DNA from: Enterovibrio norvegicus DSM 15893
Lineage (GTDB): Bacteria; Pseudomonadota; Gammaproteobacteria; Enterobacterales; Vibrionaceae
Length of the DNA stretch: 64,000 bases
Direction of reading: 5' to 3'
Assembly: GCF_900115495.1 (NCBI RefSeq)
Contig: NZ_FOWR01000001.1
Span: 107,669-171,668 of the forward strand
Under the pieces are notes generated by a model. It saw nothing but the letters and a program-made list of their open reading frames with translations. It ran no database searches and was not told the origin of the DNA. A program made the translations under genes and the position numbers. This document shows, one piece after another, positions 33,641-60,498 of the stretch; within the stretch, counting starts at the first letter, position 1; each line of letters opens with the position of its first letter.

Positions 33641-35581
33641 ATGCCAGTCGCACTGACATACCCGGGCGTTTACATTCAAGAAATCCCCAGTGGTAGCCGC
33701 TCCATCGGTGGCGTAGCTACATCCATCGCCGCGTTTGTCGGCGGCTTTTCTCGAGGACCACTCAACTCGCCTGTGACCCTGTTTCATGTTGGTGATTTCG
33801 ACACCCATCTCGGCGGTGTGCATACCGACAGTGAAACCAGCTATGCCATTTCTCAGTTCTATCTCAATGGCGGTGGTCAGGCAGTTGCCGTTCGGGTTGG
33901 TGGAGGTACAACGGGCGACATGACAGTGCAAAGCTGGAATGGCCTTACATCACTCCGTTTTACTGCAGGTCGCCAAGTTCAAGACGCACTGGTTGAAGAT
34001 CCGGGCCGATGGAACAACCACATTCGTGTTGATATCGATTACCTTACGTCTGATCCCGCCAATTTATTCAACCTTTCGGTATCGGAAATCCGCCATGTCG
34101 ATGGGGTTGAAGTCCCTGTTCGCAGCGAAACTTTCTCCAATGTTTCAATGGTGACCACACACCCCCGCTATGTGCTGAGCGTGGTCAATGACGATTCCCT
34201 TATGGTGCAGTTGCGACTTCCTGCTCCAGGTACGGATATGCCTGCGCCGACAGGGTTTTATTCTGGTGTGCAAGACACCACGACATACGCTGCAATGGCA
34301 GACGCTAATACGCTTCAAGTGGATTTAGGCACAGGCGCGTTTGATGTGGTTGTTGATGCGACAACCAAACCCACCACGATAGCTGAAGCTGCCCTGATAA
34401 TACAAAACGCCATTCGAGACACACGACCTGCCGATCCGCTTTGGGCGCAATGTCAGGTTGTGGTGCGTGGTGATCGTATGGCGATTTTCTCGGGAAGAAG
34501 TAGTCCGGACTATCGATCAGGTCAGGTGGTGTCTGTCGCAGAATCGGTGGGGGATGCTGGCTCAGTATTGATGCTTGTTGGCAGCACCGAAGCCAATGTT
34601 CAGCAATATGCCATGAACAATGTAGTAGCTGGCCATCAAACTGCTGCAACAGCCGGAACAGATGGCATTGCGCCAACCGCTGCACAGCTTCGTGGTAATC
34701 GGAATTTGCGGACGGGCATCTATGCGTTGGAAGACGTTGATCTTTTCAACATCATGATGATCCCTGAAGCCTCGGATTTAGGCAGTGTTGCGGCTATGTC
34801 GAGCGTGATCAGTCCTGCGATAAGTTACTGTGAAGAACAACGCGCATTCTTACTGATCGATCCGCCAGATGACGTTAACAGCGTGGAAGAAGCGAGCGAT
34901 TGGCTCGATGAAGTGGCAGGAGCAGGGCTTCGTCATCGAAACACCGCCGCCTACTATCCGCGTGTTCAAGTGCCCGATCCGAATAACGAAAATCGCCTCA
35001 GAACCATCGCACCGAGCGGAACGGTCGCGGGGCTCTATGCCAGAAAAGATACTGAGTCTGGGGTATGGACTGCCGCCGCAGGCATTACCGCAGGTCTTCG
35101 AAATGTTATCAGCTTCAATCACTCCCTCACCAACAATGAAATTGGTCTACTGAATCCTATTGGTCTTAATTGTCTTCGAAACGGTGGCATCAGCGGCAAC
35201 ATAGCATGGGGTGCCAGAACCCTTCGAGGTGCGGATGCACTCGCTTCTGAATGGGCGTATATCCCTGTTAGACGTACCGCACTTTTTATTGAGGAATCCC
35301 TTTTCCGTGGTCTGCAATGGGCTGTTTTCCAACCCAATGATGAGCCGCTCTGGTCAGAGATCCGCATCGCGGTGACCAATTTTATGCAGGGACTCTTCCG
35401 TCAAAAAGCGTTCCAAGGCTCTGCGCCTGAACAAGCCTTTCTCGTCAAGTGTGATGCAGAAACGACCACACCCGCTGACCGCGCGGCAGGGCGTGTGAAT
35501 GTACTCGTGGGATTCGCACCGAAAAATCCTGCGGAGTTTGTGGTGGTGAGTTTGCAGCTCATGAACAACAGTGGCAGCTAA
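33641..35581 (+). CDS. eCIS contractile sheath protein
   Basis: This 646-residue phage-tail-sheath-family protein forms the contractile outer sheath of an extracellular contractile injection system. The opening ALTYPGVYIQEIPSGSRSI, then VATSIAAFVGGFSRGP is the classic sheath N-terminus, and the C-terminal part (QWAVFQPNDEPLWSEIR) is the conserved sheath domain. It is the only sheath gene; Afp and PVC loci have three. The ATG at 33641 follows GAGGAGG and is preferred to an upstream start at 33608. Confidence 0.94.
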   Translation: MPVALTYPGVYIQEIPSGSRSIGGVATSIAAFVGGFSRGPLNSPVTLFHVGDFDTHLGGVHTDSETSYAISQFYLNGGGQAVAVRVGGGTTGDMTVQSWNGLTSLRFTAGRQVQDALVEDPGRWNNHIRVDIDYLTSDPANLFNLSVSEIRHVDGVEVPVRSETFSNVSMVTTHPRYVLSVVNDDSLMVQLRLPAPGTDMPAPTGFYSGVQDTTTYAAMADANTLQVDLGTGAFDVVVDATTKPTTIAEAALIIQNAIRDTRPADPLWAQCQVVVRGDRMAIFSGRSSPDYRSGQVVSVAESVGDAGSVLMLVGSTEANVQQYAMNNVVAGHQTAATAGTDGIAPTAAQLRGNRNLRTGIYALEDVDLFNIMMIPEASDLGSVAAMSSVISPAISYCEEQRAFLLIDPPDDVNSVEEASDWLDEVAGAGLRHRNTAAYYPRVQVPDPNNENRLRTIAPSGTVAGLYARKDTESGVWTAAAGITAGLRNVISFNHSLTNNEIGLLNPIGLNCLRNGGISGNIAWGARTLRGADALASEWAYIPVRRTALFIEESLFRGLQWAVFQPNDEPLWSEIRIAVTNFMQGLFRQKAFQGSAPEQAFLVKCDAETTTPADRAAGRVNVLVGFAPKNPAEFVVVSLQLMNNSGS

Positions 35582-35651
35582 AGGCATGAAGGGTCGCGCC
35601 TCATTAGGCGTGTTTAAGGCAAGCGAATTCGAATAATTGCGAGGAGGCGAC

Positions 35652-36179
35652 ATGTCGCAGCTGAATGTAAATGGTCAACGCATTGTTCCGTATCCCGGCT
35701 ACAAATTCATCGTGAAAGAGATGGGTGGCGACGTGTTGGCAGCGGTTCAAAAAGTCTCTGGACTGAGTCGCTCTGTAGAAGTGTTGGAATACCGAGAAGG
35801 GGGCGACCCGTCCCACACCCGTAAATCCCCCGGACAAGCCAAGTTTGAGGCCATAACGTTAGAACGCGGCGTGACAGAGAATCTGCAGTTTGAACAATGG
35901 GCCAACAAAGTATGGCGCATCGGCACAGACCTTGGGGGGGAAGTGTCACTGGCTGATTTTCGTAAAACGCTGATTTTAGACGTGCTCAACGAAGCAGGTC
36001 AGAAGGTGATGAGTTACACCATTCACGCCTGCTGGATATCAGATTACAAAGCCATTCCCGCACTGGATGCGTCGAGTTCGGCGTTCATGATTCAGTCAGT
36101 GAAGTTGGAAAACGAAGGGTGGGAGCGCAATGATGTTAGCGTGCCGAAAGAACCAAGCTTTGTTTATCCTGAATCGTGA
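35652..36179 (+). CDS. eCIS inner tube protein (T4 gp19-like)
   Basis: This 175-residue protein has the phage tail-tube pattern FIVKEMGGDVLAAVQKVSGL, in part, followed by VEVLEYREGGD and later VMSYTIHACWISDY. It forms the hexameric ring stack inside the sheath. The ATG at 35652 lies seven bases after a GAGGAGG ribosome binding site; a start at 35637 would overlap that site. It is the sole tube gene in the locus. Confidence 0.9.
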   Translation: MSQLNVNGQRIVPYPGYKFIVKEMGGDVLAAVQKVSGLSRSVEVLEYREGGDPSHTRKSPGQAKFEAITLERGVTENLQFEQWANKVWRIGTDLGGEVSLADFRKTLILDVLNEAGQKVMSYTIHACWISDYKAIPALDASSSAFMIQSVKLENEGWERNDVSVPKEPSFVYPES

Positions 36180-36206: not shown

Positions 36207-37151
36207 ATGCGAGTTGGTATCGCGTCATTAGACGACAATCAGCGTGTTGCCCTTTGGGAATCGGCGATGGAGTTATCGCCTGCTCAACGTGCAATCACCA
36301 TTTTGGCGGCTCATCTGCCGACAGTGCCGTTCGACGCATTGCAGCGTTGGACGCTGGTAGGGCGAGACCATGCCTTGCTGTTGGCATACCGCAGCCAATT
36401 CGGTGAGGGCATTCAAGTTGAAGGGCGTTGCCAAGCTTGTGATACTAAAACTCAGCTGGCTTTCACGGTGTCAGACTTACTTGAAAGCAGCTCTGATACA
36501 TTAAAAGCCGCGGTATATTGTATTGGCAGCCGCGATGAAAGTGGGAACCAATACAAGCACCAACATACACAGGCTTCATTAGTAGACACCGATGTGTACG
36601 TGCCGTCTTACTACCTTATTGCGTTTAGCGGCAACGAATATCGGTTTCGATTACCGACAACACAAGACCTTGTGCTCATTCAGGCGTCTTCCAGCAGTTC
36701 GAATAACTCTGGCGGGATAACCACTAAACACGTGTGCGAACGATTGCTGGATCAAGCGAGCTTCAACGATCTGTGTGCCGTGTTTGCTGATAAACACAGC
36801 CAAGGTAGCGCGACAGAACGGACAAAAAACGAAAGGGAGCAACAGGACAAAGGGTTAGAGAGCGAAGAGCAAAAAGCATGGACCAGCACCTTGGATGCGT
36901 TGGAACAAGAAATGCTGCGTATCGAACCGCTGACCATCGTTTCGCTGAATGCGTCGTGCCCCGAATGCGGGGCACAAACGCAGCATCAATTTGACATTGG
37001 TCACCAGTATTGGGCACTACTCGCCGCTGATGTTGAGAAACAACTGTGGGATGTACATATTCTCGCTACCGCTTATGGCTGGTCGAGTGATGCCATCTTA
37101 TCGATGAGTCCGGCGCGTCGTCGCCAACATATCGCAATGGTGATCTCATGA
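36207..37151 (+). CDS. eCIS baseplate hub assembly chaperone-like protein with two zinc-type CxxC pairs
   Basis: This 314-residue protein has an N-terminal part (ALWESAMELSPAQRAITILAAHLP) followed by RDHALLLAYRSQFG, as in proteins annotated as T4-family baseplate hub assembly chaperones (gp26/gp51 type) in eCIS loci. Two pairs, CQACDTKTQL near residue 73 and CPECGAQTQHQFD near 251, probably bind one zinc together. The middle contains a charged linker (about 195-225). The ATG follows GAGTAAGAAAA. The exact role is inferred from family and position. Confidence 0.65.
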   Translation: MRVGIASLDDNQRVALWESAMELSPAQRAITILAAHLPTVPFDALQRWTLVGRDHALLLAYRSQFGEGIQVEGRCQACDTKTQLAFTVSDLLESSSDTLKAAVYCIGSRDESGNQYKHQHTQASLVDTDVYVPSYYLIAFSGNEYRFRLPTTQDLVLIQASSSSSNNSGGITTKHVCERLLDQASFNDLCAVFADKHSQGSATERTKNEREQQDKGLESEEQKAWTSTLDALEQEMLRIEPLTIVSLNASCPECGAQTQHQFDIGHQYWALLAADVEKQLWDVHILATAYGWSSDAILSMSPARRRQHIAMVIS

Positions 37152-38206
37152 GTCGTCTATTCGGTCAATACCTCTCGCGAAACCTACAAGGTCAACAAAC
37201 CTTGAAACCGATGATCCCGTCTTACTATTCGGGGATCTCAGTGGGCATGCCTTCACGCCAATCTATTTCAGGAACGCAGGCACCTAGCCAAGGGAATTCG
37301 GGGCAATCAGAAGGGAGGGAAGGCGATGCGTTTTCGTCGCCAGCATCGTCTTCTTCATTGCTCTCGAACGCGTATCACGCGTCGAATGTTGTGGCCATTT
37401 CACCGTCTGGTTCGACGTTGTTCCACGACGCAATGGATAGCGTCAGTGCGTCCCCAGCAACGGTTCGCGATATTGAAAATGACCATGAAAGCAGTGTTAC
37501 TCAAAATAGTCTTACCCAAAAAAAGGGCACCAATAGCGACGCAACCGAAGGATATGCAGACAGCGCGACGCATCCAACCCCAGTCTCGCCAATGTCTGAA
37601 GCTCAATCACTTTCGCAACATGGCTCGAGCCTTGCGCATTCATGCTCGAGCAACATGTCGTCGCTACATTCAAGAAGCCCAATAAGTCAGGGCTCAGACG
37701 GGAAAGCCATCACATCGGCTGTTCAACACACTCACCATGACCAAAGACGCGGAGAACGCGGAAACGAAGACGCTGACGTAGCATCGGCAAATACCCCATC
37801 TCATCAAACGTCACCGAGCCGTGGCAATTACACGCAGGACATGGCCGCTTCAATTTTGTCGCCGATGTCTCCTCCAGCTCTAACATCGACCATGAACGCG
37901 GCCTCTCAACCGAGCGTTACGTCGGTGCAAGCCAGCCATTCTCCGCTCACTGCAGATGTGTCTACTGCCTCGTTGTCAGAGCGTGTTCAACAGATGGAGC
38001 AGGCAAAGCAATTTGCCGCGAAGCGCCGACATGCAGAGAGCAATGTGTCGGTGAATGTCACTATTGGGCAGGTAACAGTGACCACATCAGCGCAGCCTCA
38101 GTCGTCTACGCATTCACCTCAGCACGTTGCCCGCGAGCGACCGGCGTGGAAGCCTTCAATGACGCTTAATGACTACCTTCGTCAGCGTCAGGATGGTGAA
38201 CGATGA
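37148..38206 (+). CDS. Low-complexity eCIS-associated protein (Ser/Gln/His-rich)
   Basis: This 352-residue protein has an ordered N-terminus, RLFGQYLSRNLQGQQTLKPM, then some 270 residues rich in Ser, Gln, His, Ala and Thr that look disordered, and an ordered end: KPSMTLNDYLRQRQDG. The same two short end motifs occur in low-complexity proteins of other eCIS loci as I recall them, which suggests they dock on partners while the centre is a spacer. The start ATGA overlaps the upstream stop. Function unknown; a length-setting or scaffold role is speculative. Confidence 0.62.
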   Translation: MSRLFGQYLSRNLQGQQTLKPMIPSYYSGISVGMPSRQSISGTQAPSQGNSGQSEGREGDAFSSPASSSSLLSNAYHASNVVAISPSGSTLFHDAMDSVSASPATVRDIENDHESSVTQNSLTQKKGTNSDATEGYADSATHPTPVSPMSEAQSLSQHGSSLAHSCSSNMSSLHSRSPISQGSDGKAITSAVQHTHHDQRRGERGNEDADVASANTPSHQTSPSRGNYTQDMAASILSPMSPPALTSTMNAASQPSVTSVQASHSPLTADVSTASLSERVQQMEQAKQFAAKRRHAESNVSVNVTIGQVTVTTSAQPQSSTHSPQHVARERPAWKPSMTLNDYLRQRQDGER

Positions 38207-39519
38207 GCAGTGCATTAGCGATTGCAGGCGTCACCCAATTGATGCGTGACTTGCTCAACGACGGCTTGGTGGATCACGACGTGGCGGCAGTGGTGAATAC
38301 CAATGTGCCCGTGCACGCTTTACCGCCAGATCAGATGTTGGCGCAAGAAGAAAATAACGCGCCAGCGTTGAACGTGTTTCTGTATCACTCCGAAGTGAAC
38401 GGCGCGTGGGCGAATCAAGGCTTACCGACACGAAACAGTGATGGTCAAAGGGTCAACAATACGCCGCTGGCCTTAGATCTGTATTACCTTGTCAGCGCCT
38501 ACGGCACGGCAGATCTGCACAATGACGTGCTCTTAGGGTATGTAATGCAGATTTTGCATGAACACCCTGGGTTTACGCGTTCTGAAATCCAAACGGCATT
38601 GAATCCCTCTCCCGCCATTGCAGCGGGCTTACCGCCTTTACTGCAAGCACTGGCTAACACTGGCTTGGCCGATCAAGCAGAAGCACTGCGTATTGCGCCT
38701 CATCCTTTGCCAGTTGGCGAAATGTCGTCATTGTGGAGTGCGCTTCAAAGCCAATATCGTCCGTCCATGACCTACCGCGTGTCCACCGTGATCATTCAAT
38801 CGAGCGCACCAGCCCATAACGTGCTGCCTGTGTTGACCATTGGTGACGACAATTCAGGGCCAATGGTGATCGCGACCCTCGCGCCGGACGCGCCCTTGAT
38901 TCGTCGAGTGATCACGCCAGCCTTGCAGTCCAGCGCGCGCGTCAACGATGTGTTTGATGTGGAAGGCGTAGAAATGGGCGGGGCGAACCCAAGGTTTTCA
39001 TTGTCTCACCTACATCCTTCTTTAAACATTGAACACACTGTCATGGCACAAGCAGGCGGCGATACACGTGGGCAATCCATGCAAGTGCCTAATGCTCTCG
39101 CCAGTTGGGCGTCGGGCACCTATTCGTTGCTGTTCCATCAAGACGTGGCGGGCTCTGCGCAAACGTCGAATCAACTCACCGTACAAATCGCCCCGGTGCT
39201 GACGTTGCCACCGCTGAGCATTGTTCGAGCCGCATCGAGTATCACGGTCACCATCCGTGTTTCGCCGCATTTTCACCCCGGCCAACAAGCGACGTTATGG
39301 CTTGGCAGTGAAGGGGCAAGCGCCCAAGAAATCACCACCGCGACAGATACATTGACCTTTGTTTTCTCCGCCCTCGCAGCGGGCAATTATCCGGTTCGAA
39401 TCCGTGTAGACGGTGTGGACAGTTGGTTCATTGAGCGTGATCGTCCGCCCATTGCCCCTGACTTTACGCCGCGCCCGCCGATTTATGATCCAACGCAAAT
39501 CGTGGTGGTGCCAGCATGA
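38203..39519 (+). CDS. eCIS tail cap/terminator protein (Pvc16/Afp16-like, DUF4255)
   Basis: This 438-residue protein has an N-terminal Pvc16-type domain (about 1-200; ALAIAGVTQLMRDLLNDGL, then LNVFLYHSEVN and LDLYYLVSAYG). It caps the distal end of sheath and tube and fixes particle length in related systems. The C-terminal half looks like Ig-like beta domains (APVLTLPPLSIVRAASS). The start overlaps the previous stop (ATGA), and the stop overlaps the AAA+ gene in the same way. Confidence 0.85.
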   Translation: MSSALAIAGVTQLMRDLLNDGLVDHDVAAVVNTNVPVHALPPDQMLAQEENNAPALNVFLYHSEVNGAWANQGLPTRNSDGQRVNNTPLALDLYYLVSAYGTADLHNDVLLGYVMQILHEHPGFTRSEIQTALNPSPAIAAGLPPLLQALANTGLADQAEALRIAPHPLPVGEMSSLWSALQSQYRPSMTYRVSTVIIQSSAPAHNVLPVLTIGDDNSGPMVIATLAPDAPLIRRVITPALQSSARVNDVFDVEGVEMGGANPRFSLSHLHPSLNIEHTVMAQAGGDTRGQSMQVPNALASWASGTYSLLFHQDVAGSAQTSNQLTVQIAPVLTLPPLSIVRAASSITVTIRVSPHFHPGQQATLWLGSEGASAQEITTATDTLTFVFSALAAGNYPVRIRVDGVDSWFIERDRPPIAPDFTPRPPIYDPTQIVVVPA

Positions 39520-41582
39520 CCGACATCCTTCGATTCGATGCAGAAAAAGAGAACGCCAATGCTACTTCCAGCGTCAGTGCGGAACATACTCGCGAATCCG
39601 CCTCGTTTATGAGTTGGCAACAGGCGAATCACAGCCACATGGTTGACGTTATCGCGTGGGTGCAAGAAGGGTTGGCCATTCTTTCAAAACCTTCCCTTGC
39701 AGGGCGGGGTGAGCGTAAAAATATACGTCCTTTGAGCGAGATCCATCGTCAGTATGTCACTGAGCCGCCGACCGCCTTTACCCTTCTCGTGCAGCAATTT
39801 GGCTTAAATGGTGTAGATCAAACGGCATTGGCGCTTTCATTAAGCGCAGCACTGGACAGCGATGTGAGTAAGATCTGCGCGTCGATGTCCGGAAATCCGC
39901 TGCAAACCAATCCAAGTATCGGGATGGCGCTCTCTTTACATGGGTTAAGTGACCAAGGTGGTGAGAGCGACAGAAGTGTATTTTCACCGCACTCCCCGCT
40001 GCGGTATTGGTTGCTGATTGAGTGGCAATCCATTGGCGCGAGCGATGCCATCATTTCCCCAGACGAGCGTATTCTCAATTTTGTTCGTGGCGTGAATTAC
40101 TTGGATGAACGCCTGAGCGTGATGTTAGAGCCGACAAGGGATCACGCCGCTCAACGGCCACTTAGCGCCTCACAAGAAATCCAACGCATCGGGGCCTTGC
40201 GCTTTATTCAGCAAATGATGCAGGTACACACTCAGTCGCATCGCGCAATTATCGAACTGTATGGCGAAGACAAAACCAGCAAGCGAAACATGGCACACAC
40301 ACTTGCGGCAAGTGTCGGCATGAATTTGCACCGCTTGCATGCGACGAGCTTGCCGACCCATGCCAACGACCTCGATGCGCTATCTCGTTTGTGGCAGCGT
40401 GAAGCAGGGCTATCACCGCTATTGCTGGTGATTGAAGGCACGGACGATCCGTCACGTCAGCATGTGGTTGAGCAATTTGTTGAACGTATTCACGGCGTGG
40501 TTGTGCTCGAAGCGGGGGACTCGCCCATGGGGATTTTTCCACATAGTTTCCCGCTTCATGTAGCGCGTCCATCCGTGACAGAACAAGAGCAATATTGGCG
40601 ACAGTTGTTACCCCATGCCGATGCTGATTTGCCACTGCGTTTGTCGGAGCAATTTTCCTTTAGCCAATCCGATATTCAGCAATTGGTCACGGTTTCTTCG
40701 CTTCATGAACAGGGCGGATTGCACGTTGAGCACGTGCTTTGGAAAGCGTGCCAACGCCATTCTTCGACAGCATTATCGCGCCTTGCGCAGCGCATTGATT
40801 GCAAAGCCAATTGGGAAACCTTGGTACTGCCGCCGAAGCAAACCACCATGCTTGAACAACTCACGGCGCAAGTGGGGTTACGAAATCGTGTTTATCAACA
40901 ATGGGGATTTCGCGAACGCATGAGCCGAGGCATGGGCATCAGCGCCATGTTCTGTGGTGACAGCGGTACGGGGAAAACCATGGCGGCAGAAGCCATTGCC
41001 AGCGCGTTGGAACTGGATTTATACCGCATTGATTTGTCGAGCGTGATCAGCAAATACATCGGCGAGACTGAGAAGAAAATGCGTGAACTGTTTCAGGCGG
41101 CTGAGCAGTGTGGGGCGATCCTGTTTTTTGATGAAGCCGATGCCTTGTTCGGCAAACGTAGTGACGTGAAAAGCAGTAACGACAGATACGCCAACATCGG
41201 CATTGATGATTTGTTGCAGCGTATCGAAAGCTATCGTGGGCTGGCGATTTTGGCGACCAATCTGAAATCTTCTATCGATAAAGCCTTCCTACGCCGATTG
41301 CGGTTTGTGGTGGATTTTCCCTTCCCAGGGCCTGCCGAGCGTGAACGCATTTGGCGCACCGTGTTCCCACCACAAACACCGCTCTCAGACGATGTTGATC
41401 CCGTGCGTTTGTCGCGTTTAAACCTGACGGGCGGCAGCATTCACAATGTTGCACTCAACGGCGCCTTTCTCGCCGCGCAGCATAACGAACCCGTGGCGAT
41501 GCGTTTTTTGATGGAAGCGGCATCGGCGGAATTGCAAAAACTCGATAGACCAGTGAAAGCGGGGGACTTGGATTATGGCTGA
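39516..41582 (+). CDS. eCIS AAA+ ATPase (Afp15/Pvc15-like)
   Basis: This 688-residue protein has an active C-terminal AAA+ module: Walker A GDSGTGKT (481-488), Walker B ILFFDEAD (535-542) and an arginine-finger region KAFLRRLRFVVDFP. Upstream (about 240-420) is a second module with a degenerate P-loop (GEDKTSKR, 250-257) probably unable to hydrolyse ATP. Related ATPases are needed for particle assembly or cargo loading in Afp and PVC systems. It overlaps the next gene, a DUF4157 protein, by eight bases, which implies joint translation. Confidence 0.92.
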   Translation: MTDILRFDAEKENANATSSVSAEHTRESASFMSWQQANHSHMVDVIAWVQEGLAILSKPSLAGRGERKNIRPLSEIHRQYVTEPPTAFTLLVQQFGLNGVDQTALALSLSAALDSDVSKICASMSGNPLQTNPSIGMALSLHGLSDQGGESDRSVFSPHSPLRYWLLIEWQSIGASDAIISPDERILNFVRGVNYLDERLSVMLEPTRDHAAQRPLSASQEIQRIGALRFIQQMMQVHTQSHRAIIELYGEDKTSKRNMAHTLAASVGMNLHRLHATSLPTHANDLDALSRLWQREAGLSPLLLVIEGTDDPSRQHVVEQFVERIHGVVVLEAGDSPMGIFPHSFPLHVARPSVTEQEQYWRQLLPHADADLPLRLSEQFSFSQSDIQQLVTVSSLHEQGGLHVEHVLWKACQRHSSTALSRLAQRIDCKANWETLVLPPKQTTMLEQLTAQVGLRNRVYQQWGFRERMSRGMGISAMFCGDSGTGKTMAAEAIASALELDLYRIDLSSVISKYIGETEKKMRELFQAAEQCGAILFFDEADALFGKRSDVKSSNDRYANIGIDDLLQRIESYRGLAILATNLKSSIDKAFLRRLRFVVDFPFPGPAERERIWRTVFPPQTPLSDDVDPVRLSRLNLTGGSIHNVALNGAFLAAQHNEPVAMRFLMEAASAELQKLDRPVKAGDLDYG

Positions 41583-43359: not shown

Positions 43360-43390
43360 TGGAGTGAGTGGGGACATGGGAGAGAAAAAG

Positions 43391-43621
43391 ATGAAGATAA
43401 ATCTCCATATTGATGACATTTCGTTGCCGGATAACGCCACGTATCACGACGTGTATCGTGCCTTATCGCATGCCGTTGTTGAGCAATGGCCGAGCGGGTT
43501 GTCTGACGGTGCGACGTCCATACGAGAGCACGCAATTGCGCGAGAGCAAGCCATCGTCCGAACGACGGAAAGCGTGATGCATCAGTTGCAAACCCTTACA
43601 CAAGTAGGAAGGGGACGCTAA
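43391..43621 (+). CDS. Small protein of unknown function (76 aa)
   Basis: The product begins MKINLHIDDISLPDN and then appears mainly helical (YRALSHAVVEQW; REHAIAREQAIVRTTE). It lies between the first DUF4157 gene and the gp53-like adaptor and ends directly before that gene's ATG. I chose the ATG at 43391, with GGGAGAG upstream; one at 43376 is possible. It could be a structural protein, a chaperone or an immunity factor for the gene upstream; nothing in the sequence decides. Confidence 0.6.
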   Translation: MKINLHIDDISLPDNATYHDVYRALSHAVVEQWPSGLSDGATSIREHAIAREQAIVRTTESVMHQLQTLTQVGRGR

Positions 43622-44272: not shown

Positions 44273-44632
44273 ATGACCGATCTTTCACACTATTTGCTTA
44301 GCAACACGGAAGAGACCGCAGACTTTACGCCGAACAGTCGTTACGTCGGGTTGCCGTTGCGTGTGATGACAGATGCAAATGGCACGGAAAGGGTGTTTGT
44401 GAGTCGTCGTTTCCTTCCCCAGCCTGCGTCAACGGAACGCTTGCAAAGCCTTGTGATTCGGGAAGGAGACAGGCTCGACATGCTCGGCGCGGCGTATTAT
44501 GCCGACGCGTCAAAATGGTGGTGTATTGCCGATGCAAATTTGGTGCAACACCCTGATGAGCTTGTCAGTCAAATTGGGCGACGCATTGCGCTGCGTTCTG
44601 ATGACACTGAGAACGGTTCTGGAGGGCGCTGA
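44273..44632 (+). CDS. eCIS LysM-like baseplate protein (gp53-like)
   Basis: This 119-residue protein contains a LysM-like fold, VIREGDRLDMLGAAYYADASKWWCIADAN given in part as REGDRLDMLGAAYY and WWCIADAN, as in phage baseplate gp53. In Afp7 this domain is fused to the CIS_tube domain; here the two are separate genes. The ATG follows AAGAAGGACATCAAG and the stop overlaps the next start (TGATG). Confidence 0.75.
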   Translation: MTDLSHYLLSNTEETADFTPNSRYVGLPLRVMTDANGTERVFVSRRFLPQPASTERLQSLVIREGDRLDMLGAAYYADASKWWCIADANLVQHPDELVSQIGRRIALRSDDTENGSGGR

Positions 44633-52473: not shown

Positions 52474-54572
52474 GCAGCATGATGTCTTCAAGCGCGTTAT
52501 CGCCAGATGCTCTTTATGCGCGATTGCCCGACGTCTATCGCAAGCGCGATGAAGAACAGGGCTTTCCGCTAAAAGCGTTAATGGAAATTCTGGCGGAACA
52601 AGCGGCAATTGTGCGCGATGAAGCCGACAGACTTTACGACAATCAGTTTATTGAAACCTGCGACGAATGGGCCGCGTCTTACATTGGTGAGCTGGTGGGC
52701 TATCGCTATGGCCCAGAAATTCCCGGTGTCAGCCAGCGTGCTGCTGCGGCAAATCAGATTCGCCTCGCTCGTCGTCTTGGCGTCGCGCTAACGCTAGAAC
52801 AATTAGCGACAGACACCACGCGTTGGCCGTCTCGTGTGGTCGAATTTTTCCGGTTACTCGCACGACCAGAGCACCTTGCGGCCCCACGACCCCACGAACA
52901 TTACACGTTAGACATTCGAAACAGCCGCCAATGCGATGCGTTAGGCACCGCCTTTGATACGGCCAGCTACACCATTGACACAGGGCGCATCAGCCAAGGG
53001 GAAGGGCGACACCATTTTCGACATGTTGGGCTGTTTTTGTGGCGACTTCGCCCGTATCGGCAACCACTCGTCCCCGCGTTCAGGGTGGCGGCGCGGCGCT
53101 ACTTGTTCAACCCCTTGGGCATCAACACCGCCATGTTCAACGTGCCCCTGACCGAGCAAGACATTAACCACATTGCCCGCGAAGAAAACCTGCCCGTGCC
53201 GCTCGCTCGTCGTCGTATTTCGGGCGCGCATCTCGCGGCGTTTTACGGGCGTTCTTTCACCCTGTTCTTAGACGGAATAGAGCAAACCCATGACATGATC
53301 CAGATCTGTAACCTCAGTGATGACGGAGTCAATTGGGCACATTCACCTGTCGATCGTATTTCGGTTGACCCAGAACTCGGACGACTCTTTTTACCCGCCA
53401 GCATGGACGAACCCGATGTGGTCGACATCTCCTATCACTATGGCATGTGTGCCGATGTCGGGGGCGGCGATTACTCACGGGCAGAGGGCTTTATTCAAGG
53501 CTTGTCGCCGTTGCTTTCGATTGCTGCCGGAGAGGCGATTCAACCTGCATTGGATACCCTCGTATCGGGCGGCGTGGCGGAAATATCCGTATCGCACGTC
53601 TTCACCGAACCCTTGGCGATTGCTGTGGATGTCGATCAAACCTTATCGCTGCGATCAGCAGACGGTCATCGTGCATTTATCAACCTTGATGACGATGACA
53701 TGACCGTGGTTGGTGGGGAAGAGGCAGAAGTGGTCATCGACGGTTTGACCCTTTATGGTGGGCGTTTGGTGCTTCCTGATGATGGCAACAACGCCCTGCG
53801 CCGCTTGGTGCTGCGCAATGTCACTTTGGTGCCGGGCATTCAACTGTCGATGGATGGCGAACCTCAACAACCAACGACGCCGTCATTGGTGATTGAAATC
53901 CCAAATGTCACCGTTGAAATTGAGCGTTCAATTCTTGGCGCGATTCATTGTGTAGAAGGTGCGTCCGTTACCATAAAAGACAGCATGATCGACGCAATAT
54001 CGCGTACGAATGTGGCTTTTTCGGCGCTTGACGAGGTGACCCATGGTGGCGCACTCACACTGTGTGAAACCACGGTGATCGGCAAAGTAGCCGCCAAATG
54101 TTTCCCGTTAATTTCCAATGCTCTGTTAGATGCCGCGCTTGACGAGGTAGACGATTGGGATGCCCCTGTGTGGGCGCAACAAAGACAAACGGGCTGTGCC
54201 CGATATTCTTACATTCCTCCGCATTCACGCGTTCCTCGCCAACATCACTGTCAGCCCCAATTTGCGTCGGCGAAAGCCATTGAAGAAGCACAACTGCACA
54301 ACCCAACCCTCAGCGATGCAGAACGTGACTATATCGTTCGCGGCGTGCGCGCGCGATTAGTGCCAGCATTCACCGCGCTGCGTTATGGCAACGCAGCCTA
54401 TGGGCAAGTGTTGTTGGCTGCTCCAGAAGAAATCCGACGTGGCGCTGACAGCGGCAGCGAAATGGGAATGTATCACCACCTTTACCAGCCTCAACGAGAA
54501 GATGCGCTGAAATTTCGCCTCGACGAATTTCTGCCGATTGGTCTCGATCTCGGCTTGATCTACGTGACCTAA
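52470..54572 (+). CDS. eCIS tail protein I-like baseplate protein (Afp12-type)
   Basis: This 700-residue protein has an N-terminal phage tail protein I-like domain: ALYARLPDVYRKRDEEQGFPL and ETCDEWAASYIGELVGYR. The middle (about 370-520) has short beta-helix-like repeats, and the C-terminal region contains TGCARYSYIPPHSRVPRQHHC, a pattern typical of eCIS members. It probably connects baseplate wedges to the fibre encoded next. The start overlaps the previous stop (ATGA). Confidence 0.82.
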   Translation: MSSMMSSSALSPDALYARLPDVYRKRDEEQGFPLKALMEILAEQAAIVRDEADRLYDNQFIETCDEWAASYIGELVGYRYGPEIPGVSQRAAAANQIRLARRLGVALTLEQLATDTTRWPSRVVEFFRLLARPEHLAAPRPHEHYTLDIRNSRQCDALGTAFDTASYTIDTGRISQGEGRHHFRHVGLFLWRLRPYRQPLVPAFRVAARRYLFNPLGINTAMFNVPLTEQDINHIAREENLPVPLARRRISGAHLAAFYGRSFTLFLDGIEQTHDMIQICNLSDDGVNWAHSPVDRISVDPELGRLFLPASMDEPDVVDISYHYGMCADVGGGDYSRAEGFIQGLSPLLSIAAGEAIQPALDTLVSGGVAEISVSHVFTEPLAIAVDVDQTLSLRSADGHRAFINLDDDDMTVVGGEEAEVVIDGLTLYGGRLVLPDDGNNALRRLVLRNVTLVPGIQLSMDGEPQQPTTPSLVIEIPNVTVEIERSILGAIHCVEGASVTIKDSMIDAISRTNVAFSALDEVTHGGALTLCETTVIGKVAAKCFPLISNALLDAALDEVDDWDAPVWAQQRQTGCARYSYIPPHSRVPRQHHCQPQFASAKAIEEAQLHNPTLSDAERDYIVRGVRARLVPAFTALRYGNAAYGQVLLAAPEEIRRGADSGSEMGMYHHLYQPQREDALKFRLDEFLPIGLDLGLIYVT

Positions 54573-54584: not shown

Positions 54585-57500
54585 ATGGCTGTAGATATTT
54601 CAGGAAAGACCTTTGACCCTCGCCATAACTACTCCGAACTGGTGTCGATGCAAGGGCGGGTGGTGTCAGATGCACCACTCAATGAAGGCGCAGCGATGGT
54701 TGACCGCCGTTTCCGCGCAGAGACCATCGATCTTGCTGGATTTTGTGGATACCCCGCACACCTTCCCGACAGTTTCCGAATTTCTGTCATCGCAGGGCAA
54801 CTCGCTATCCATCCCGGTCGATATTATGTTGATGGCTTGCTGGCAGAGAACTTTGGCAGCGGCGATCCGGATTTTTATCATCCTCTTGAAGAGCTGCACA
54901 GTAACGAACCGTATCTTTTCCACGAGCAACCTTATCGGCCGCTCCTAGCTTCTATTGAACAGGCTTCTAATGATTTGCTGGGCGATGAGCCTGAAGACGG
55001 CCGCTATTTGGTGTACCTCGAAGTGTGGAAACGTCCTATCACGTTTCTTGAAGCGCCTGATTTGGTCGATCCCGCGATTGGGGGGGATACCACAGCGCGT
55101 ATGCAAACCGTGTGGCAGGTGCGACGTTTTGGCCCTGTCAGCGATGATGTCACCTGCGCGACCGACGATCAGGACATCCCCAATTGGGATGACCTGACTG
55201 CGCCTTCTTCCGCGCGACTTTCCACCCGTGCAAACCCTGCCTCTGCGGTGGACGATCCTTGTTTGTTGCCCCCAGAAGGTGGGTATCGCGGATTAGAAAA
55301 CCGCACTTACATGGTCAGCGTGCACGATGTGTTGGCAGACGGCAGACCATTAATCAAATGGTCGCGTGCTCATGCTGCGTTTGCTGCACGGATCTTGTCT
55401 CAGCCTGCGTCAAATACCCTGACCATGGATCAGGTTGCGAAGGATGATTACCTCAGGTTTAGCGCCGGCGACTGGGTGGAAATTACCGATGATGTGCGTG
55501 TGTTGGAAGGTATTCCCGGTGCGGTTGTACGCGTGTTGTCGGTCAATGACGCGACGAACACCTTGGTGTTGGAAAACCCGTTAGCCGCGGGTGATTTGTT
55601 ATTGGTGCCCGCATCAACCGTCGCCAATCAATCGATCCATCCCATAGTGCGTCGTTGGGATCAGTCGGGCGTGGTGCTGGACACTGATGGCAACCAAATT
55701 GTGAATCTAGACTCACCAACCAGTGATGGCCTGATCCCCATCAGCGCTGAAGGCACCTTTATCGCCCTTGAAGACGGCGTGGAAGTGGCGTTGAGTCGCC
55801 ATGGTGGTGCGGGCAGTTATCACCCCGGCGATCACTGGTCGTTTGTCACGCGCTATGCCGACAGCTCAGTTGAAGCACTGACCGACGCGCCGCCTCATGG
55901 CACGCATCATCATTTCTGTCGCTTGGCGGTGGTGGATGCGCTCAATGGCGAGTTTGTCGACCCCGTGTTTCAAGATTGCCGCGATCCCATTGGCATGACA
56001 GGGTGCTGCACCGTGGTGGTTCGTCCCGGTGAAGACATTCAAGCCGCCATTGATAGCTTATCCATTGAGTTTGGTGGTTGCGTCTGTTTGAAAACCGGTG
56101 TGCATGACATTTTCCGCGCCATTCACATTCGACATAGCAACGTCACGCTTCACGGCGAATGCCATGGGGCGCAAATCCGTCACCTTGGTGGCGAGTCTGC
56201 CATTGTGGTTCAGTCAGACAACAATGACACCATTTCGGGGATTCATCTCACCACCTTAGACATCCGCGTTGCTGCACCAAGTGAGAAGCCGCAGGGCATC
56301 GTATCGATGCTGGGTGTTGAACATAGCCTGATCGAAGATTGCCACATCTCCTCACAGACAAGCCAAGAGAACCAAACCGATAACCCGGCCATTGGGCTGT
56401 TTAATTGCAGCCATGTTCGCGTGCTCAACAACATCATGAACCACACCGTCATCGGGGTATGGCTTGATGACGGCGGTGAAGACCTGCTGGTCGAAGGTAA
56501 CGTGATTGAAGCGTCCGATGTGTCGAACAGCAACGCGAATGACGATGTGAGCATATTGGGTGAAAGTGGGCTCATTGGTGTTGGCGTCGGCCAACTCTCC
56601 GGCGCGGCAATCGTGACCAAAAACGATATTCGAGGCTATCGGCGCGGGGTGGTGGTCAATAACTCCCCCATGGGGCGTAAGTACTCTACCGCCGCGAATA
56701 GCCAAGTCACGGACAATCGCATCACCATCGAACATCACTTTGAAGACGATGAGTCTATTGCTATCGAATTGACCTGCGCGTTTGGTGTGGTATCGCGCAA
56801 TGAAATCAATATCGGCGCGGGAAATGGTGTTGGTATCTCCGTGACTGGGCTTGGGTGTTTGATTGAACGCAATCGCCTTCAGGGATTGTCTGGCCGCGCG
56901 TTAACCCATGCGGGTGCAACAGACGGCGCGGCGCTGCTGGCGATTAAGGTGGGTGATGACGAAGAAACCTTTACTGGCGGTGTCACCATCACGCAAAACT
57001 GGATACAGGGATTTATTGGCGGCGTGGCGGCCGACCAAGTATCGGCGTTGCGCGTTTTGAATAACATTTTTGCGGGGCAGGCCGGCGACGAAGTTGGCGT
57101 GACAGCGTCAGAATGTATTGGCGTAAACATCGAAGGAAATACCTTTACCCAATGCAGCATTTCGGTGTTTGGTAGCCAATGCGAAGACATTCAAGTGCAA
57201 ACCAACCACATCACAGAGGGTGGCGCGGCGATCATGTGCGAACGGTGCGTCCGTTTGGACGTACTCAATAACCACATCAACAATTGCAGCCATGGCGGCA
57301 TCGTGGTGGTGCTTTGCGTGATGCGCGCCGCGATTATCGGTAATCGCTTGAACTATGTCGGCGTGCAGGGCGATGGCATGTTTGCATCGTCGATCGCTTG
57401 TGTGTTCCACCTGGGTGAGAGCCACATTGAATCCAATGAAGTGCTGAACACGGGCGTCAATAAAGAGGGCGAGGTTAACGCCGAGAGAACGATCGGCATT

Positions 57501-58016
57501 GGCGCTGTGTTTGTGTTGGAAGCCAGAGTTGAAGGCAATCTGGTGTCTTACTCGGATTTGCTGACACGGGAACGCATCGAAGATGATCGCGCCTTGTTGA
57601 TGCAAGGGCTGGTGGAGTGGGCATTTTTCTTTGGCGACAGTGCGCTACGCATCGGCTATTCAGCACAGATCAACAACAACAAATTCCTCGGTCGCGGCAG
57701 CGATACCGTCGTTGAGATCTTGTCACGCAGCATTATCGACAACCTCAATCTCCGCTTTGAACGGGTGTTCTTCAGTAACAACTATGTCGAGCATGTGGGT
57801 TTCGTGAAAGACGAAGTCGGGCAGCATGCCACTGTGGTTCTTGCAGGCTTCCGCGCATCCGTCATGGGCAATCAAGTCAAAGCCCAAACCCGTTTCCTTC
57901 CGTCTTTTGACTTCAACAACATGCAAGGGCCTTTCATCGGCAATATCACCACAGGCCGTGTCGAAGGCCACAACGAATTCCCTGTGCCAGAAAACGCATT
58001 TAATCAGCAGGTTTGA
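54585..58016 (+). CDS. eCIS beta-helix fibre/receptor-binding protein (DUF6519-like N-terminus)
   Basis: This 1143-residue protein has an N-terminal attachment domain (MAVDISGKTFDPRHNYSELV, then QGRVVSDAPLNEGAAM and GRYYVDGLLAEN) of the DUF6519 type, an intermediate beta-rich part and, from about 475, a right-handed parallel beta-helix: many 20-25-residue turns with N-N-x-I/F patterns (VRVLNNIMNHTVIGVW; GVNIEGNTFTQCS). Beta-helices are used by phage tailspikes for receptor recognition and glycan cleavage. It is the best candidate for target recognition; no catalytic residues can be named from sequence alone. Confidence 0.8.
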   Translation: MAVDISGKTFDPRHNYSELVSMQGRVVSDAPLNEGAAMVDRRFRAETIDLAGFCGYPAHLPDSFRISVIAGQLAIHPGRYYVDGLLAENFGSGDPDFYHPLEELHSNEPYLFHEQPYRPLLASIEQASNDLLGDEPEDGRYLVYLEVWKRPITFLEAPDLVDPAIGGDTTARMQTVWQVRRFGPVSDDVTCATDDQDIPNWDDLTAPSSARLSTRANPASAVDDPCLLPPEGGYRGLENRTYMVSVHDVLADGRPLIKWSRAHAAFAARILSQPASNTLTMDQVAKDDYLRFSAGDWVEITDDVRVLEGIPGAVVRVLSVNDATNTLVLENPLAAGDLLLVPASTVANQSIHPIVRRWDQSGVVLDTDGNQIVNLDSPTSDGLIPISAEGTFIALEDGVEVALSRHGGAGSYHPGDHWSFVTRYADSSVEALTDAPPHGTHHHFCRLAVVDALNGEFVDPVFQDCRDPIGMTGCCTVVVRPGEDIQAAIDSLSIEFGGCVCLKTGVHDIFRAIHIRHSNVTLHGECHGAQIRHLGGESAIVVQSDNNDTISGIHLTTLDIRVAAPSEKPQGIVSMLGVEHSLIEDCHISSQTSQENQTDNPAIGLFNCSHVRVLNNIMNHTVIGVWLDDGGEDLLVEGNVIEASDVSNSNANDDVSILGESGLIGVGVGQLSGAAIVTKNDIRGYRRGVVVNNSPMGRKYSTAANSQVTDNRITIEHHFEDDESIAIELTCAFGVVSRNEINIGAGNGVGISVTGLGCLIERNRLQGLSGRALTHAGATDGAALLAIKVGDDEETFTGGVTITQNWIQGFIGGVAADQVSALRVLNNIFAGQAGDEVGVTASECIGVNIEGNTFTQCSISVFGSQCEDIQVQTNHITEGGAAIMCERCVRLDVLNNHINNCSHGGIVVVLCVMRAAIIGNRLNYVGVQGDGMFASSIACVFHLGESHIESNEVLNTGVNKEGEVNAERTIGIGAVFVLEARVEGNLVSYSDLLTRERIEDDRALLMQGLVEWAFFFGDSALRIGYSAQINNNKFLGRGSDTVVEILSRSIIDNLNLRFERVFFSNNYVEHVGFVKDEVGQHATVVLAGFRASVMGNQVKAQTRFLPSFDFNNMQGPFIGNITTGRVEGHNEFPVPENAFNQQV

Positions 58017-58030: not shown

Positions 58031-58450
58031 ATGGCAAAAGCACAAGATCTTTTAAAGAAGCACTTCTCTTTGGTGTCTGACCTGCAGAAAGTGAATCGCC
58101 CCTTGGGGGAGAAAAACCCCATCGGGCGAACCAAGGCCAATGCCGAAGCGCAACGAAGCCGTTTAGAGCGCCGAATCGCAGAGTTAGAAAAACAGCGAGA
58201 GGTGTTCAACCGCAGTATTGATGAATCCATCAAGCGTGAGCAAGAACAGCTTGATGAAATTCGTAAGTTTGAAGACATGGTGACGGAACCCCAGCAGAAC
58301 AAAGAACAAGAAAAACCTAAGCCAGTACCGAAGCCAGCACCGAAACCAAGAGCTAAAGCATCAGTAAAAGCCGCGACCAAAAAAGTCACCCCCGCACGTA
58401 AAACAACCACGCGTGCAGCGGCGAAGAAACGCACGCCACCCAAGGCTTAG
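58031..58450 (+). CDS. Coiled-coil protein with a histone-like Lys/Ala/Pro tail
   Basis: This 139-residue protein has a coiled coil at about 35-85 (RLERRIAELEKQREVFNRSI) and a very basic tail (about 95-139; KPVPKPAPKPRAKA, KAATKKVTPARKTTTRAA). Such tails bind nucleic acids or acidic surfaces. It lies between the fibre and the second DUF4157 gene. It may be a cargo chaperone, a fibre trimerisation factor or a DNA-binding protein; none is proven. The ATG at 58031 with AAGGAG upstream is preferred to a TTG at 58013. Confidence 0.7.
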   Translation: MAKAQDLLKKHFSLVSDLQKVNRPLGEKNPIGRTKANAEAQRSRLERRIAELEKQREVFNRSIDESIKREQEQLDEIRKFEDMVTEPQQNKEQEKPKPVPKPAPKPRAKASVKAATKKVTPARKTTTRAAAKKRTPPKA

Positions 58451-58514: not shown

Positions 58515-59873
58515 ATGTGGACACATGCTCCGCGAGATGCGGGAAAACAGGTTTCGTTAAGCGGCGATGAACATCAAACGCGCGCGTTTGGTCAGCGAAG
58601 TCAGGTGTTATCTACACCGACGAGCATGTTTTCGTCGAGACAGACAAAGGATGTTGCGCCGAATGCGCTGCCATTTGTTCAAACCAAGCTCAGTTTGAGC
58701 GATCCGGGTGACAAGTATGAGCGAGAAGCTGATCGCGTCGCTGATGTGGTGATGGGAAACGCGCCGGCTTCCTCTGAATCTGCGTCTATCACGGGCGACC
58801 CAGAGGCGATTTCCCGTGTTCCTGAGTCAGAAATGGTGGCACAAAGGGCATGCAAAGCCTGCGAAGAAGAAGAGTTGATGCGAGATGCGTCTTCATCGTC
58901 GCCGACGCAGCACATCTCAGATAGCGCCGCAGCGCATATTCAGTCAGTCTCTGGCGGCGACCCGTTGCCCAACACCGAGCGGCAATTCTTTGAATCTCGC
59001 TTTGGCGCGGATTTTAGCCAAGTGCGTATTCACACCGACAGTCGTGCAGATAGCGCTGCGCGGTCGATTCAGGCCAAAGCCTATACCCGTGGCGCTGATA
59101 TCGTATTCCGTAAAGGGGATTATGACCCACATTCATTTCAAGGCAAAAAGCTGCTTGCGCACGAATTAACACACGTTATTCAACAAGGTGGCGCATCACA
59201 GCACGTGCATCGCAGCATGGCGCCTACTGTGAGCGAACACGTTCCGCCGACATTCCAGCGCAGTTTAATTGCACGCACTTGCACTGTCGGGCCGGGCCCG
59301 TTTCCGGGCACAGGACTGACACCACCAGGAGATTGCGGTTGGTCTGACTACATACCTTTGAGAGCATCGGTGCTTTCAGCGAAGACACTGACGAATCAGC
59401 TTGGGGGGTGTACTGTCACTGAAAGTTGTGTGTCTTTAGCATTAAAAATCGCTGCGATGTCAGCGGAAATCGCCGCTCGCTTAGCGCTGGATACGACGTG
59501 TTTTCGTGGCGGGGATCGGGGGCATCGCATTCAGGTGTGTGACAAAGTGAATGCCATGATGCGTTGTTTTCGTTTCTTTGGTAATTCAAATTGTTCCCCT
59601 GAGCTTGTGGGGGCAATGGCAACGGTGGTTGCTGCAGTCACGACGTCGATTGAGGCAACAGCGGCTGCACTTGCCGTCGCCGTCGTGATAGCACTCATTG
59701 TGGCCGTAATTGTTGCGATCATTGCGCTGATTAAAGTGATTGCCGCAGCGCTCGCGGCGGCGGCGGTAACCGCTGCGGAAGCTGCAACATTGACGGCGGC
59801 CGCTGCAGCCATCTTACTGATGCTAAATACATTGCAAGAAAGCTTAGGATCAGACGATGATGATGGTGCGTAA
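58515..59873 (+). CDS. DUF4157 (eCIS core domain) protein with a hydrophobic C-terminal region: probable cargo 2
   Basis: This 452-residue protein has the EREADRVADVV motif (69-79), a CKAC pair (113/116) with an acidic run, and a DUF4157 domain (about 135-225) with HELTH at 216-220. The C-terminal part from 255 is unlike the first cargo: a Cys-rich segment (Cys256, 274, 299, 305, 329, 342, 351, 360) with CFRGGDRGHRI (329-339), then a long Ala/Val/Ile-rich hydrophobic region (363-440) ending in a DDDD tail. A membrane-acting or pore-like toxin is one reading; an enzyme based on the GGDRGH motif is another. GGAGGACGGGG precedes the ATG. Confidence 0.75.
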   Translation: MWTHAPRDAGKQVSLSGDEHQTRAFGQRSQVLSTPTSMFSSRQTKDVAPNALPFVQTKLSLSDPGDKYEREADRVADVVMGNAPASSESASITGDPEAISRVPESEMVAQRACKACEEEELMRDASSSSPTQHISDSAAAHIQSVSGGDPLPNTERQFFESRFGADFSQVRIHTDSRADSAARSIQAKAYTRGADIVFRKGDYDPHSFQGKKLLAHELTHVIQQGGASQHVHRSMAPTVSEHVPPTFQRSLIARTCTVGPGPFPGTGLTPPGDCGWSDYIPLRASVLSAKTLTNQLGGCTVTESCVSLALKIAAMSAEIAARLALDTTCFRGGDRGHRIQVCDKVNAMMRCFRFFGNSNCSPELVGAMATVVAAVTTSIEATAAALAVAVVIALIVAVIVAIIALIKVIAAALAAAAVTAAEAATLTAAAAAILLMLNTLQESLGSDDDDGA

Positions 59874-59922
59874 TTTGCGGAAGGAGTGTCACTACAGTGA
59901 TTGAAACGGAGTGTAATTCTGA

Positions 59923-60498
59923 ATGAAGCATGAACACATTGCAGAACAACTAAAGCACGCATTTCGGGCGCGCCCACGCCCTTCAAACACGGAAATGGTC
60001 GCGTCTGACGTCAGTGAGTATGAAGCCCAAGCGTTTAGCGCCTTGTTGATTGAGCGTGAGCCTTGGTCATTAACACCGTTGGAAATTCGCGATGTGATTG
60101 GCACGAACCTATGGATGTTCTCGCCAAAAGCGTTTCACTATTACTTGCCGGCGCTTCTTTCCGCCACGCTGAACCACTTTGGTTCCGTGAGCATGTTTGC
60201 TAACGAGGTGGTTGATGCCTTGATTCGTCCTGAAGAGGGAGACGCAGACGCTGTCATTGCGCGCTTTGAAGGAAAGGATGAAGCGGCGTTCACCGTATCG
60301 CTGAAAACCTATATACACGAATGGTATGACTCGGGTTGGCCTGACACCTTGTTTTTGCACCGTTTTGGGACGTTAACGCAAGAGGAAGGCGAGGCGGTGC
60401 TCAAGTACATCGAGGCGTTTCGCGATGCGCATGGCGAAAACTTTCCCTTTGATGAATTGAATGTCGCCATTGAACGTTATTGGCAAAGGTATGGATGA
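59923..60498 (+). CDS. Possible immunity protein of cargo 2 (DUF6714-like)
   Basis: This 191-residue soluble protein has RPSNTEMVASDVSEYEAQAF, then LTPLEIRDVIGTNLWMFSPKAFHYYLPALL, the pattern as I recall it of small DUF6714-like proteins found beside polymorphic-toxin genes. It directly follows the second cargo gene and is the last gene of the locus. Immunity is inferred from position only. No signal peptide or membrane helix is evident, which favours a cytoplasmic site of action. GGAGTGTAAT is a plausible ribosome binding site. Confidence 0.6.
   Translation: MKHEHIAEQLKHAFRARPRPSNTEMVASDVSEYEAQAFSALLIEREPWSLTPLEIRDVIGTNLWMFSPKAFHYYLPALLSATLNHFGSVSMFANEVVDALIRPEEGDADAVIARFEGKDEAAFTVSLKTYIHEWYDSGWPDTLFLHRFGTLTQEEGEAVLKYIEAFRDAHGENFPFDELNVAIERYWQRYG

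Follow-up and report, generated by a model that had tools for sequence, protein, structure and literature searches.

An intact contractile injection locus in Enterovibrio norvegicus with a candidate toxin-immunity pair at its 3' end

What kind of contractile machine is encoded by a 21-gene locus of Enterovibrio norvegicus DSM 15893, and why does a gene of the DUF6714 family follow its last toxin gene? The locus occupies positions 33641-60498 of the plus strand, from the start of the sheath gene through the end of the DUF6714 gene, in the window analyzed here (64,000 nucleotides of contig NZ_FOWR01000001.1, from a source assembly of 5.45 Mb in 99 contigs). Judged by its sequence, it is a real and intact extracellular contractile injection system (eCIS), a familiar class of machine; the locus is of the Enterovibrio/Grimontia type (Vibrionaceae). 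The overall best explanation, to which we give a probability of about 0.7, is that it builds a free phage-tail-like particle loading cargo proteins with an eCIS_core (DUF4157) domain, and that one of these proteins, the Ntox16-bearing cargo 2, is countered by DUF6714.

None of the 21 genes contains an internal stop, and the intergenic spacing ranges from -8 to 162 bp. The genes are listed below, with E values following the names of matched profiles and structures.

33641..35581, plus strand: sheath (Cis2-like), 646 aa; PF17482 1.3e-8, PHROG tail sheath 9.3e-58, S. coelicolor CIS sheath 8bky 1.7e-65
35652..36179, plus strand: inner tube (Cis1-like), 175 aa; PF06841 (gp19) 2e-38, tCIS All3324 7.7e-11
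36207..37151, plus strand: T4-baseplate-like protein, 314 aa (the "adaptor" of an earlier note); PHROG 150 baseplate hub 2e-5, PF12322 0.003, below cut-off
37148..38206, plus strand: Ser-rich, fast-changing protein, 352 aa; no profile match, congeners have a protein in the same position that aligns poorly
38203..39519, plus strand: cap or tail terminator (Pvc16-like), 438 aa; PF14065 (Pvc16_N) 1.7e-44
39516..41582, plus strand: AAA+ ATPase (Pvc15-like by content and position), 688 aa; PF00004 5e-27, PF22977 (WHD) 4e-14
41575..43359, plus strand: cargo 1, eCIS_core with C-terminal Tox-WTIP, 594 aa; PF13699 4e-26, PF15654 4e-10
43364..43621, plus strand: 85-aa protein, probably structural or accessory; no profile match
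43622..44245, plus strand: CIS_tube protein (Cis7-like), 207 aa; PF19266 2.7e-8
44273..44632, plus strand: small baseplate protein, 119 aa ("LysM-like" is our own label); PHROG 7145 baseplate wedge 3e-4, no Pfam match
44632..45759, plus strand: hub (gp27/VgrG-like), weakly identified, 375 aa; position, profile against VgrG 9rce_F 0.0033, 38% relative with the same neighbors in locus L084
45805..46320, plus strand: spike (OB domain), 171 aa; PF04717 5e-17
46483..46806, plus strand: PAAR-like tip (DUF4280), 107 aa; PF14107 3.8e-4, below cut-off
46876..47241, plus strand: gp25 sheath initiator, 121 aa; PF04965 5e-12
47238..49766, plus strand: baseplate wedge J1 (Cis11-like), 842 aa; TIGR02243 5.7e-61, Baseplate_J 4.5e-5, J-like baseplate chain 9gtp 3.9e-9
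49768..52473, plus strand: baseplate wedge J2 (second Cis11-like), 901 aa; TIGR02243 4.6e-55, PF04865 below cut-off
52470..54572, plus strand: tail-protein-I-like (Cis12-like by position), 700 aa; PHROG 521 1.7e-4, no solved relative found
54585..58016, plus strand: tail fibre, DUF6519 (eBAP5) anchor with beta-helix, 1143 aa; PF20129 5e-29, PF05048 (NosD) 1.6e-10
58031..58450, plus strand: Lys/Ala-rich protein, 139 aa; no profile match, homologue in all 10 of the 11 compared loci that reach it
58515..59873, plus strand: cargo 2, eCIS_core with Ntox16 and a hydrophobic C-terminus, 452 aa; PF13699 1e-31, PF15523 1e-21, hydrophobic stretch from residue 388
59923..60498, plus strand: DUF6714, candidate Ntox16 immunity protein, 191 aa; PF20461 7e-11, all-helical predicted model, pLDDT 76.8

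Profile searches gave matches above curated cut-offs for the sheath C-terminal domain, the gp19 tube, the Pvc16_N cap, the AAA+ ATPase with its WHD, CIS_tube, the spike OB domain, gp25, Baseplate_J in the first wedge, TIGR02243 in both wedges, DUF6519 and NosD in the fibre, and eCIS_core in the two cargo genes. The 314-aa "adaptor", the 119-aa protein, the PAAR-like tip, and the tail-I-like protein are weakly identified, and three proteins (37148-38206, 43364-43621, and 58031-58450) had no profile match. The weakest identification is that of the hub, and it counts against our reading: Pfam, NCBIfam, and PHROG searches returned no match, a profile built from 12 relatives found one VgrG chain, and an AlphaFold2 model made from 12 sequences reached a pLDDT of 36. 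The parts by which an eCIS is recognized are nevertheless present, namely, a sheath and tube with baseplate, hub (weakly) and spike, and cap; an AAA+ ATPase; a Pvc16-type terminator; eCIS_core cargo; and a tail fibre combining DUF6519 with a beta-helix, with no head genes recognized. The sheath is the one Phage_sheath_1C match in its genome. The two-part TssB/TssC sheath and the TssJLM proteins that mark a type VI secretion system (T6SS) lie outside the locus, in a separate operon at 2225-22780.

The earlier note, made from the sequence alone, had described an eCIS with its own cargo, separate from the nearby T6SS, and the profile matches support this description. Every component that it named is present on the plus strand where it was placed, some through weak matches, and its single sheath gene, single tube gene, and tight one-strand packing were confirmed. 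Neither of the findings that it had set against its own reading, a prophage with capsid genes nearby or frameshifts in core components, was obtained: among the locus genes and the 10 flanking genes scanned, no capsid, portal, terminase, or integrase family was recognized (the note had likewise seen no integrase), and the core genes are open throughout. We found no published description of an eCIS in Enterovibrio, Grimontia, or the Vibrionaceae in the open-licence PMC literature; dbeCIS and eCIStem, which were not searched, may list the locus.

Sheath matches occurred in 18 of 197 genomes drawn evenly from the same family. Near-full-length sheaths with 75-100% identity were found in 13 of the 18 same-genus genomes and in genome G006, the sheath of G081 being split in two, and four genomes of another genus matched over the C-terminal part only, at 32-34% identity. 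Thirteen further loci have a near-full-length sheath. We compared 11 of them (all but G067 and G081), every one from a congener or near-congener, and gene order was identical throughout; the G006 locus ends within the first wedge, and in G078 several genes are each broken into two frames. A search over named genomes with two short peptide patterns, whose counts are lower bounds, recovered at least 24 sheath loci, 12 of them in the Vibrionaceae. These include Enterovibrio baiacu (98%), E. coralii, E. calviensis, E. norvegicus, four further Enterovibrio/Grimontia-type entries, with Grimontia marina, G. celer, G. hollisae, and G. indica among them, and Veronia pacifica. Remoter loci, at 36-57%, belonged to Methylocaldum, Burkholderiaceae, Rhizobacter, Caballeronia, Comamonadaceae, Aquincola, Tahibacter, Luteibacter, an unplaced proteobacterial metagenome-assembled genome (MAG), and a Thermoanaerobaculum MAG. 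Over the best segment, the sheaths of Methylocaldum, Caballeronia, Luteibacter, Tahibacter, and others are 46-50% identical to ours; cargo contents differ in loci of this type, several of which are cut by contig or flank ends. The earlier note held that the order of components sets this locus apart from the Afp and PVC systems. It does differ from the Afp/PVC order, but it is not special to this locus, as the order sheath, tube, gp3-like protein, cap, and AAA+ ATPase recurs in 8 of the 11 distant loci read (the remaining 3 were too short), 6 of these 8 having an eCIS_core-like gene after the AAA+ gene. Grimontia hollisae CIP 101886, a strain of a species that is an occasional human gut pathogen, carries the eCIS sheath as well. 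The abstract of a 2021 survey speaks of an apparent absence of eCIS from mammalian pathogens (PMC8213781).

The 3' end of the locus holds cargo 2 and DUF6714. In a 2012 table of polymorphic toxins (PMC3482391), the entry for Ntox16 describes an alpha-helical domain with R and [DNE]xxH motifs and gives no immunity partner; it stands after the heading "Predicted metal-independent RNase toxins" and before the next RNase heading. Ntox16 is present in 5 of the 18 genus genomes and DUF6714 in the same 5, with one copy of each, and the remaining 13 have neither. The two genes are adjacent in all five (the window, G071, G078, G059, and G081). Because of this shared distribution and constant adjacency, DUF6714 is likely, though not established, to be the Ntox16 immunity protein. 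A tree built from 8 core proteins of 12 loci places the window and G071 as sister to G026, G031, and G036, which lack the pair, whereas the pair-bearing G078 and G059 branch elsewhere; toxin and DUF6714 were thus gained or lost together. The same position is taken by a different eCIS_core gene of 718-775 aa in G026, G031, G036, and G075 and by nothing in G055, G014, and G046, so that its content differs between G075 and G055/G046 despite near-identical core proteins. We infer from these comparisons that the 3' end is an exchangeable cargo slot. As a predicted RNase, cargo 2 would probably hit relatives as well, and we propose that this is why the genome carries DUF6714 as immunity.

How would the particle work, and does it leave the cell? 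The best solved relatives of the sheath were 8bky (1.7e-65) and 8bl4 (8.9e-63) from Streptomyces coelicolor and 9ezm (1.2e-64) from Halogeometricum borinquense, followed by 9qgl (2.9e-37) and Pvc2 (4.9e-34); the tCIS, AlgoCIS, and Afp sheaths also ranked behind the Streptomyces and haloarchaeal ones. These pairwise scores lean toward eCIS lineage II, although the tube, unlike the sheath, is about equally close to tCIS, entry 9r9h, and AlgoCIS. With the lineage I systems, Afp of Serratia and PVC of Photorhabdus, the locus shares sheath, tube, Pvc16 cap, AAA+ ATPase, CIS_tube, spike, gp25, wedges, and fibre, but those systems have several sheath and tube genes (the Pvc2/3/4 and Afp2/3/4 sheaths) where this locus has one of each, and their sheaths match less well than that of the S. 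coelicolor system CISSc (eCIS-IId). CISSc provides the closest solved sheath, and 9gtp, the match of J1, is an accession that occurs in the CISSc paper. However, published accounts of Streptomyces CIS describe a lack of conventional fibre genes and a dependence on the membrane protein CisA (PMC12237407, PMC10066040), whereas our locus has a DUF6519 fibre and no recognized CisA-like gene. The H. borinquense system (clade IIa), with its near-equal sheath match, has DUF4157 toxins with downstream immunity genes, some of the toxins lying outside the locus (PMC11566945); it is membrane bound with a candidate anchor, and no anchor was recognized here.

In the mechanism that we propose, the AAA+ ATPase would help to load cargo bearing the eCIS_core domain, both the two proteins encoded in the locus and others scattered in the genome; cargo loading through Pvc15 homologues has been described (PMC11297309). 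Particles would leave the cell via lysis, the fibre would bind the target surface, the sheath would contract, and the cargo would enter the target. DUF6519 was described in 2026 as the fibre-anchoring domain eBAP5, in proteins whose C-termini are frequently beta-helical (PMC12923769). A crude hydropathy scan found passing membrane-helix windows only in cargo 2, at its C-terminus, and none in the 19 locus proteins other than cargo 2 and DUF6714, so no T6SS-like membrane anchor is evident. The presence of a fibre and the restriction of hydropathy windows to cargo 2 favor a free particle over an anchored one.

Two observations pull the other way: no lysis gene was recognized in the locus, and the nearest solved sheaths, 8bky and 9ezm, come from cytoplasmic (Streptomyces) and membrane-bound (haloarchaeal) systems, which leaves room for a nonreleased mode. 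Particles might stay in or on the producer, either firing on contact, as in haloarchaea, or killing their own host cell under stress, as in Streptomyces, and an immunity gene linked to the locus would be easier to explain if producers survive. We consider this unlikely, given the large DUF6519 fibre, for which Streptomyces CIS have no conventional counterpart, and given that no multipass or CisA-like membrane protein gene was recognized in the locus. A prophage or prophage remnant hardly deserves consideration. The sheath did match 129 phage records, but all are below 60% identity and none covers 80% of the query (the best 8 of the 129 have 47-54% coverage and 25-31% identity), and the lack of recognized capsid, portal, terminase, and integrase genes speaks against a phage origin, as do a gene order that is constant across the genus and the presence of DUF4157 cargo, Pvc16, and DUF6519, which are described as eCIS markers (PMC12923769).

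A more serious challenge concerns DUF6714, which could be a passenger or a co-effector or chaperone of the Ntox16 cargo, a reading otherwise compatible with a free, cargo-loading particle. The immunity assignment rests on co-occurrence in five related genomes, to which the pair is confined, and one of these, G081, has a DUF6714 match that scores below the family cut-off, beside a toxin gene broken into two frames. The two families also part company farther afield: in the phylum sample, DUF6714 occurs in 5 of 398 genomes (our own included, and one below cut-off), whereas in an equally drawn sample Ntox16 occurs in our own genome only (1 of 398). When the four DUF6714 loci outside the genus were read by eye, one had it in second place after an RHS gene (L091) and the other three had no recognized toxin, one of these having DUF6714 before a small uncharacterized gene. 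A structure search with the DUF6714 model matched no solved structure (best E value, 1.6). All of this weighs against immunity, and a passenger or co-effector is quite possible, if somewhat short of an even chance. What tells against it is the exact co-occurrence within the genus together with joint absence in the sister lineage, the position directly downstream of the toxin that immunity genes usually take, and the one DUF6714 gene elsewhere that lies near an RHS gene. Immunity by a downstream gene also has a precedent in the DUF4157 toxins of H. borinquense (PMC11566945). The RHS protein in L091 was considered as a relative of cargo 2 and rejected, having no similarity to it and no Pfam Ntox16 match. 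DUF6714 had no match on plasmids. In the open-licence PMC literature, we found no mention of DUF6714 at all and none of Ntox16 in connection with contractile injection, Ntox16 appearing only in the 2012 paper (PMC3482391).

The other locus-encoded toxin, cargo 1, is present in the window and in 8 of the 11 compared loci and is absent from G031, G036, and G059. Its C-terminus is well conserved, with the motif WWTMP in the window. The 2012 table lists Tox-WTIP as a pore-forming domain that spans the membrane with two helices and carries RxxR and Wx[ST]IP motifs (PMC3482391). Cargo 1 probably acts on membranes. Against this, no window of cargo 1 passed the hydropathy scan for membrane helices (best mean, 1.32). 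The 85-aa gene that follows at 43364-43621 was rejected as a cargo 1 immunity gene because a homologue of it occurs in every one of the 11 compared loci, even the three that lack cargo 1.

Cargo genes of this type are not confined to the locus. The E. norvegicus genome has four eCIS_core matches, two in the locus and two outside (contigs C44 and C50), one of the latter with an XOO_2897-type deaminase domain just over cut-off. On contig C50, the deaminase-type cargo gene (6972-8810) adjoins two opposite-strand frames at 5958-6971 that by eye resemble parts of one ATP-binding protein, as if the gene for it had been broken there. Across the genus, eCIS_core was found in 14 of 18 genomes, with 21 matches inside and 21 outside eCIS loci; the total of 42 includes 5 from G081, at least 2 of them pieces of one gene. 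At least one outside gene occurred in 11 of 13 sheath-bearing genomes and in 1 of 5 sheathless ones (G051). We read 20 of the 21 outside genes and assigned their end types by eye: 6 have an AHH-nuclease end (Pfam tested in one), 4 resemble the C44 gene, 2 belong to the deaminase type, a further 4 have an unassigned end in common, and the last 4 are singletons, of which one has DUF4347. Among same-strand open reading frames starting within 250 bp after these 20 genes, there was no recurrent small partner gene. The neighbors that did recur were a phosphatidylethanolamine-binding-type protein of 182 aa, next to 2 of the AHH genes (Pfam tested in one), and a lipoprotein-like gene of 410/411 aa, next to 2 other scattered genes. 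The pattern itself is not new: H. borinquense likewise has DUF4157 cargo genes at its CIS locus as well as at other genomic sites (PMC11566945).

Two features upstream of the sheath gene may bear on expression of the locus.

33120..33141, no strand assigned: likely terminator, stem-loop with T-run GGAGCC-AAAT-GGCTCC-TTTTTT, separating the eCIS from the lipoprotein/transglycosylase genes upstream; read directly from the sequence, not among the sites listed by a scan
33270..33430, plus strand: possible promoter or regulatory region, with GATTACA at 33281 and TGTGTAT at 33410, common to most congeners (alignment of 12 upstream regions, inspected by eye)

A sigma-70 scan upstream of the sheath gave nothing above chance (2 sites against 3.8 expected). 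None of the 20 scattered cargo genes has both the GATTACA and the TGTGTAT stretch upstream (two have GATTAC alone, and none has TGTGTAT), and we therefore rejected a regulation common to the eCIS and the scattered cargo. At the other end, 58000-62200 contains 13 terminator-like sites against 5.5 expected, 11 of the 13 on the minus strand; these include a strong site directly after DUF6714 at 60529-60547.

The neighboring T6SS operon ends 10.9 kb before the sheath gene and encodes TssB, C, E, F, and G, an FHA protein, TssJ, K, and L, a ClpV-type ATPase, a sigma-54 regulator, VasI, VasJ, TssM, and an ImpA_N protein. Each of the 15 proteins scanned had a Pfam match in keeping with such an operon. 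The earlier note had reported a complete T6SS operon about 11 kb away; operon and distance hold, and "complete" is slightly too strong, because Hcp and VgrG are not among the 15 proteins. Five Hcp genes lie on other contigs of the genome, and VgrG was not searched for beyond the operon. A homologue of TssM or of the last T6SS gene lies within about 14 kb upstream in 7 of the 11 compared loci (G071, G078, G026, G031, G075, G055, and G046), and co-occurrence of eCIS and T6SS in one cell has been reported as frequent. Between the two systems, 23248-25863 holds a tandem pair of GH17-type genes and a dual-specificity-type phosphatase gene (Pfam Tc-R-P, 4e-11), a homologue of which immediately precedes the sheath in 6 of the 11 compared loci.

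The new elements, neither of them raised in the earlier note, are, as far as the sequences compared here indicate, the proposed Ntox16-DUF6714 pair, which is the most useful, and the genus-wide scattered eCIS_core cargo without an evident partner gene. A more far-reaching proposal, tentative and rather doubtful, is that DUF6714 is a new Ntox16-neutralizing immunity family. The eCIS would then be an antibacterial weapon that spares kin, with a toxin-immunity cassette at its 3' end that is swapped in one piece, and the same particle would also be loaded with chromosome-wide, immunity-less eCIS_core cargo against distant, perhaps eukaryotic, targets. The 2021 survey calls the missing immunity genes beside most antibacterial eCIS toxins an intriguing mystery (PMC8213781), and the Ntox16-DUF6714 pair would bear on how eCIS producers escape their own antibacterial cargo. 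With a candidate toxin-immunity pair and partnerless scattered cargo in one organism, it becomes possible to ask which eCIS cargoes endanger kin.

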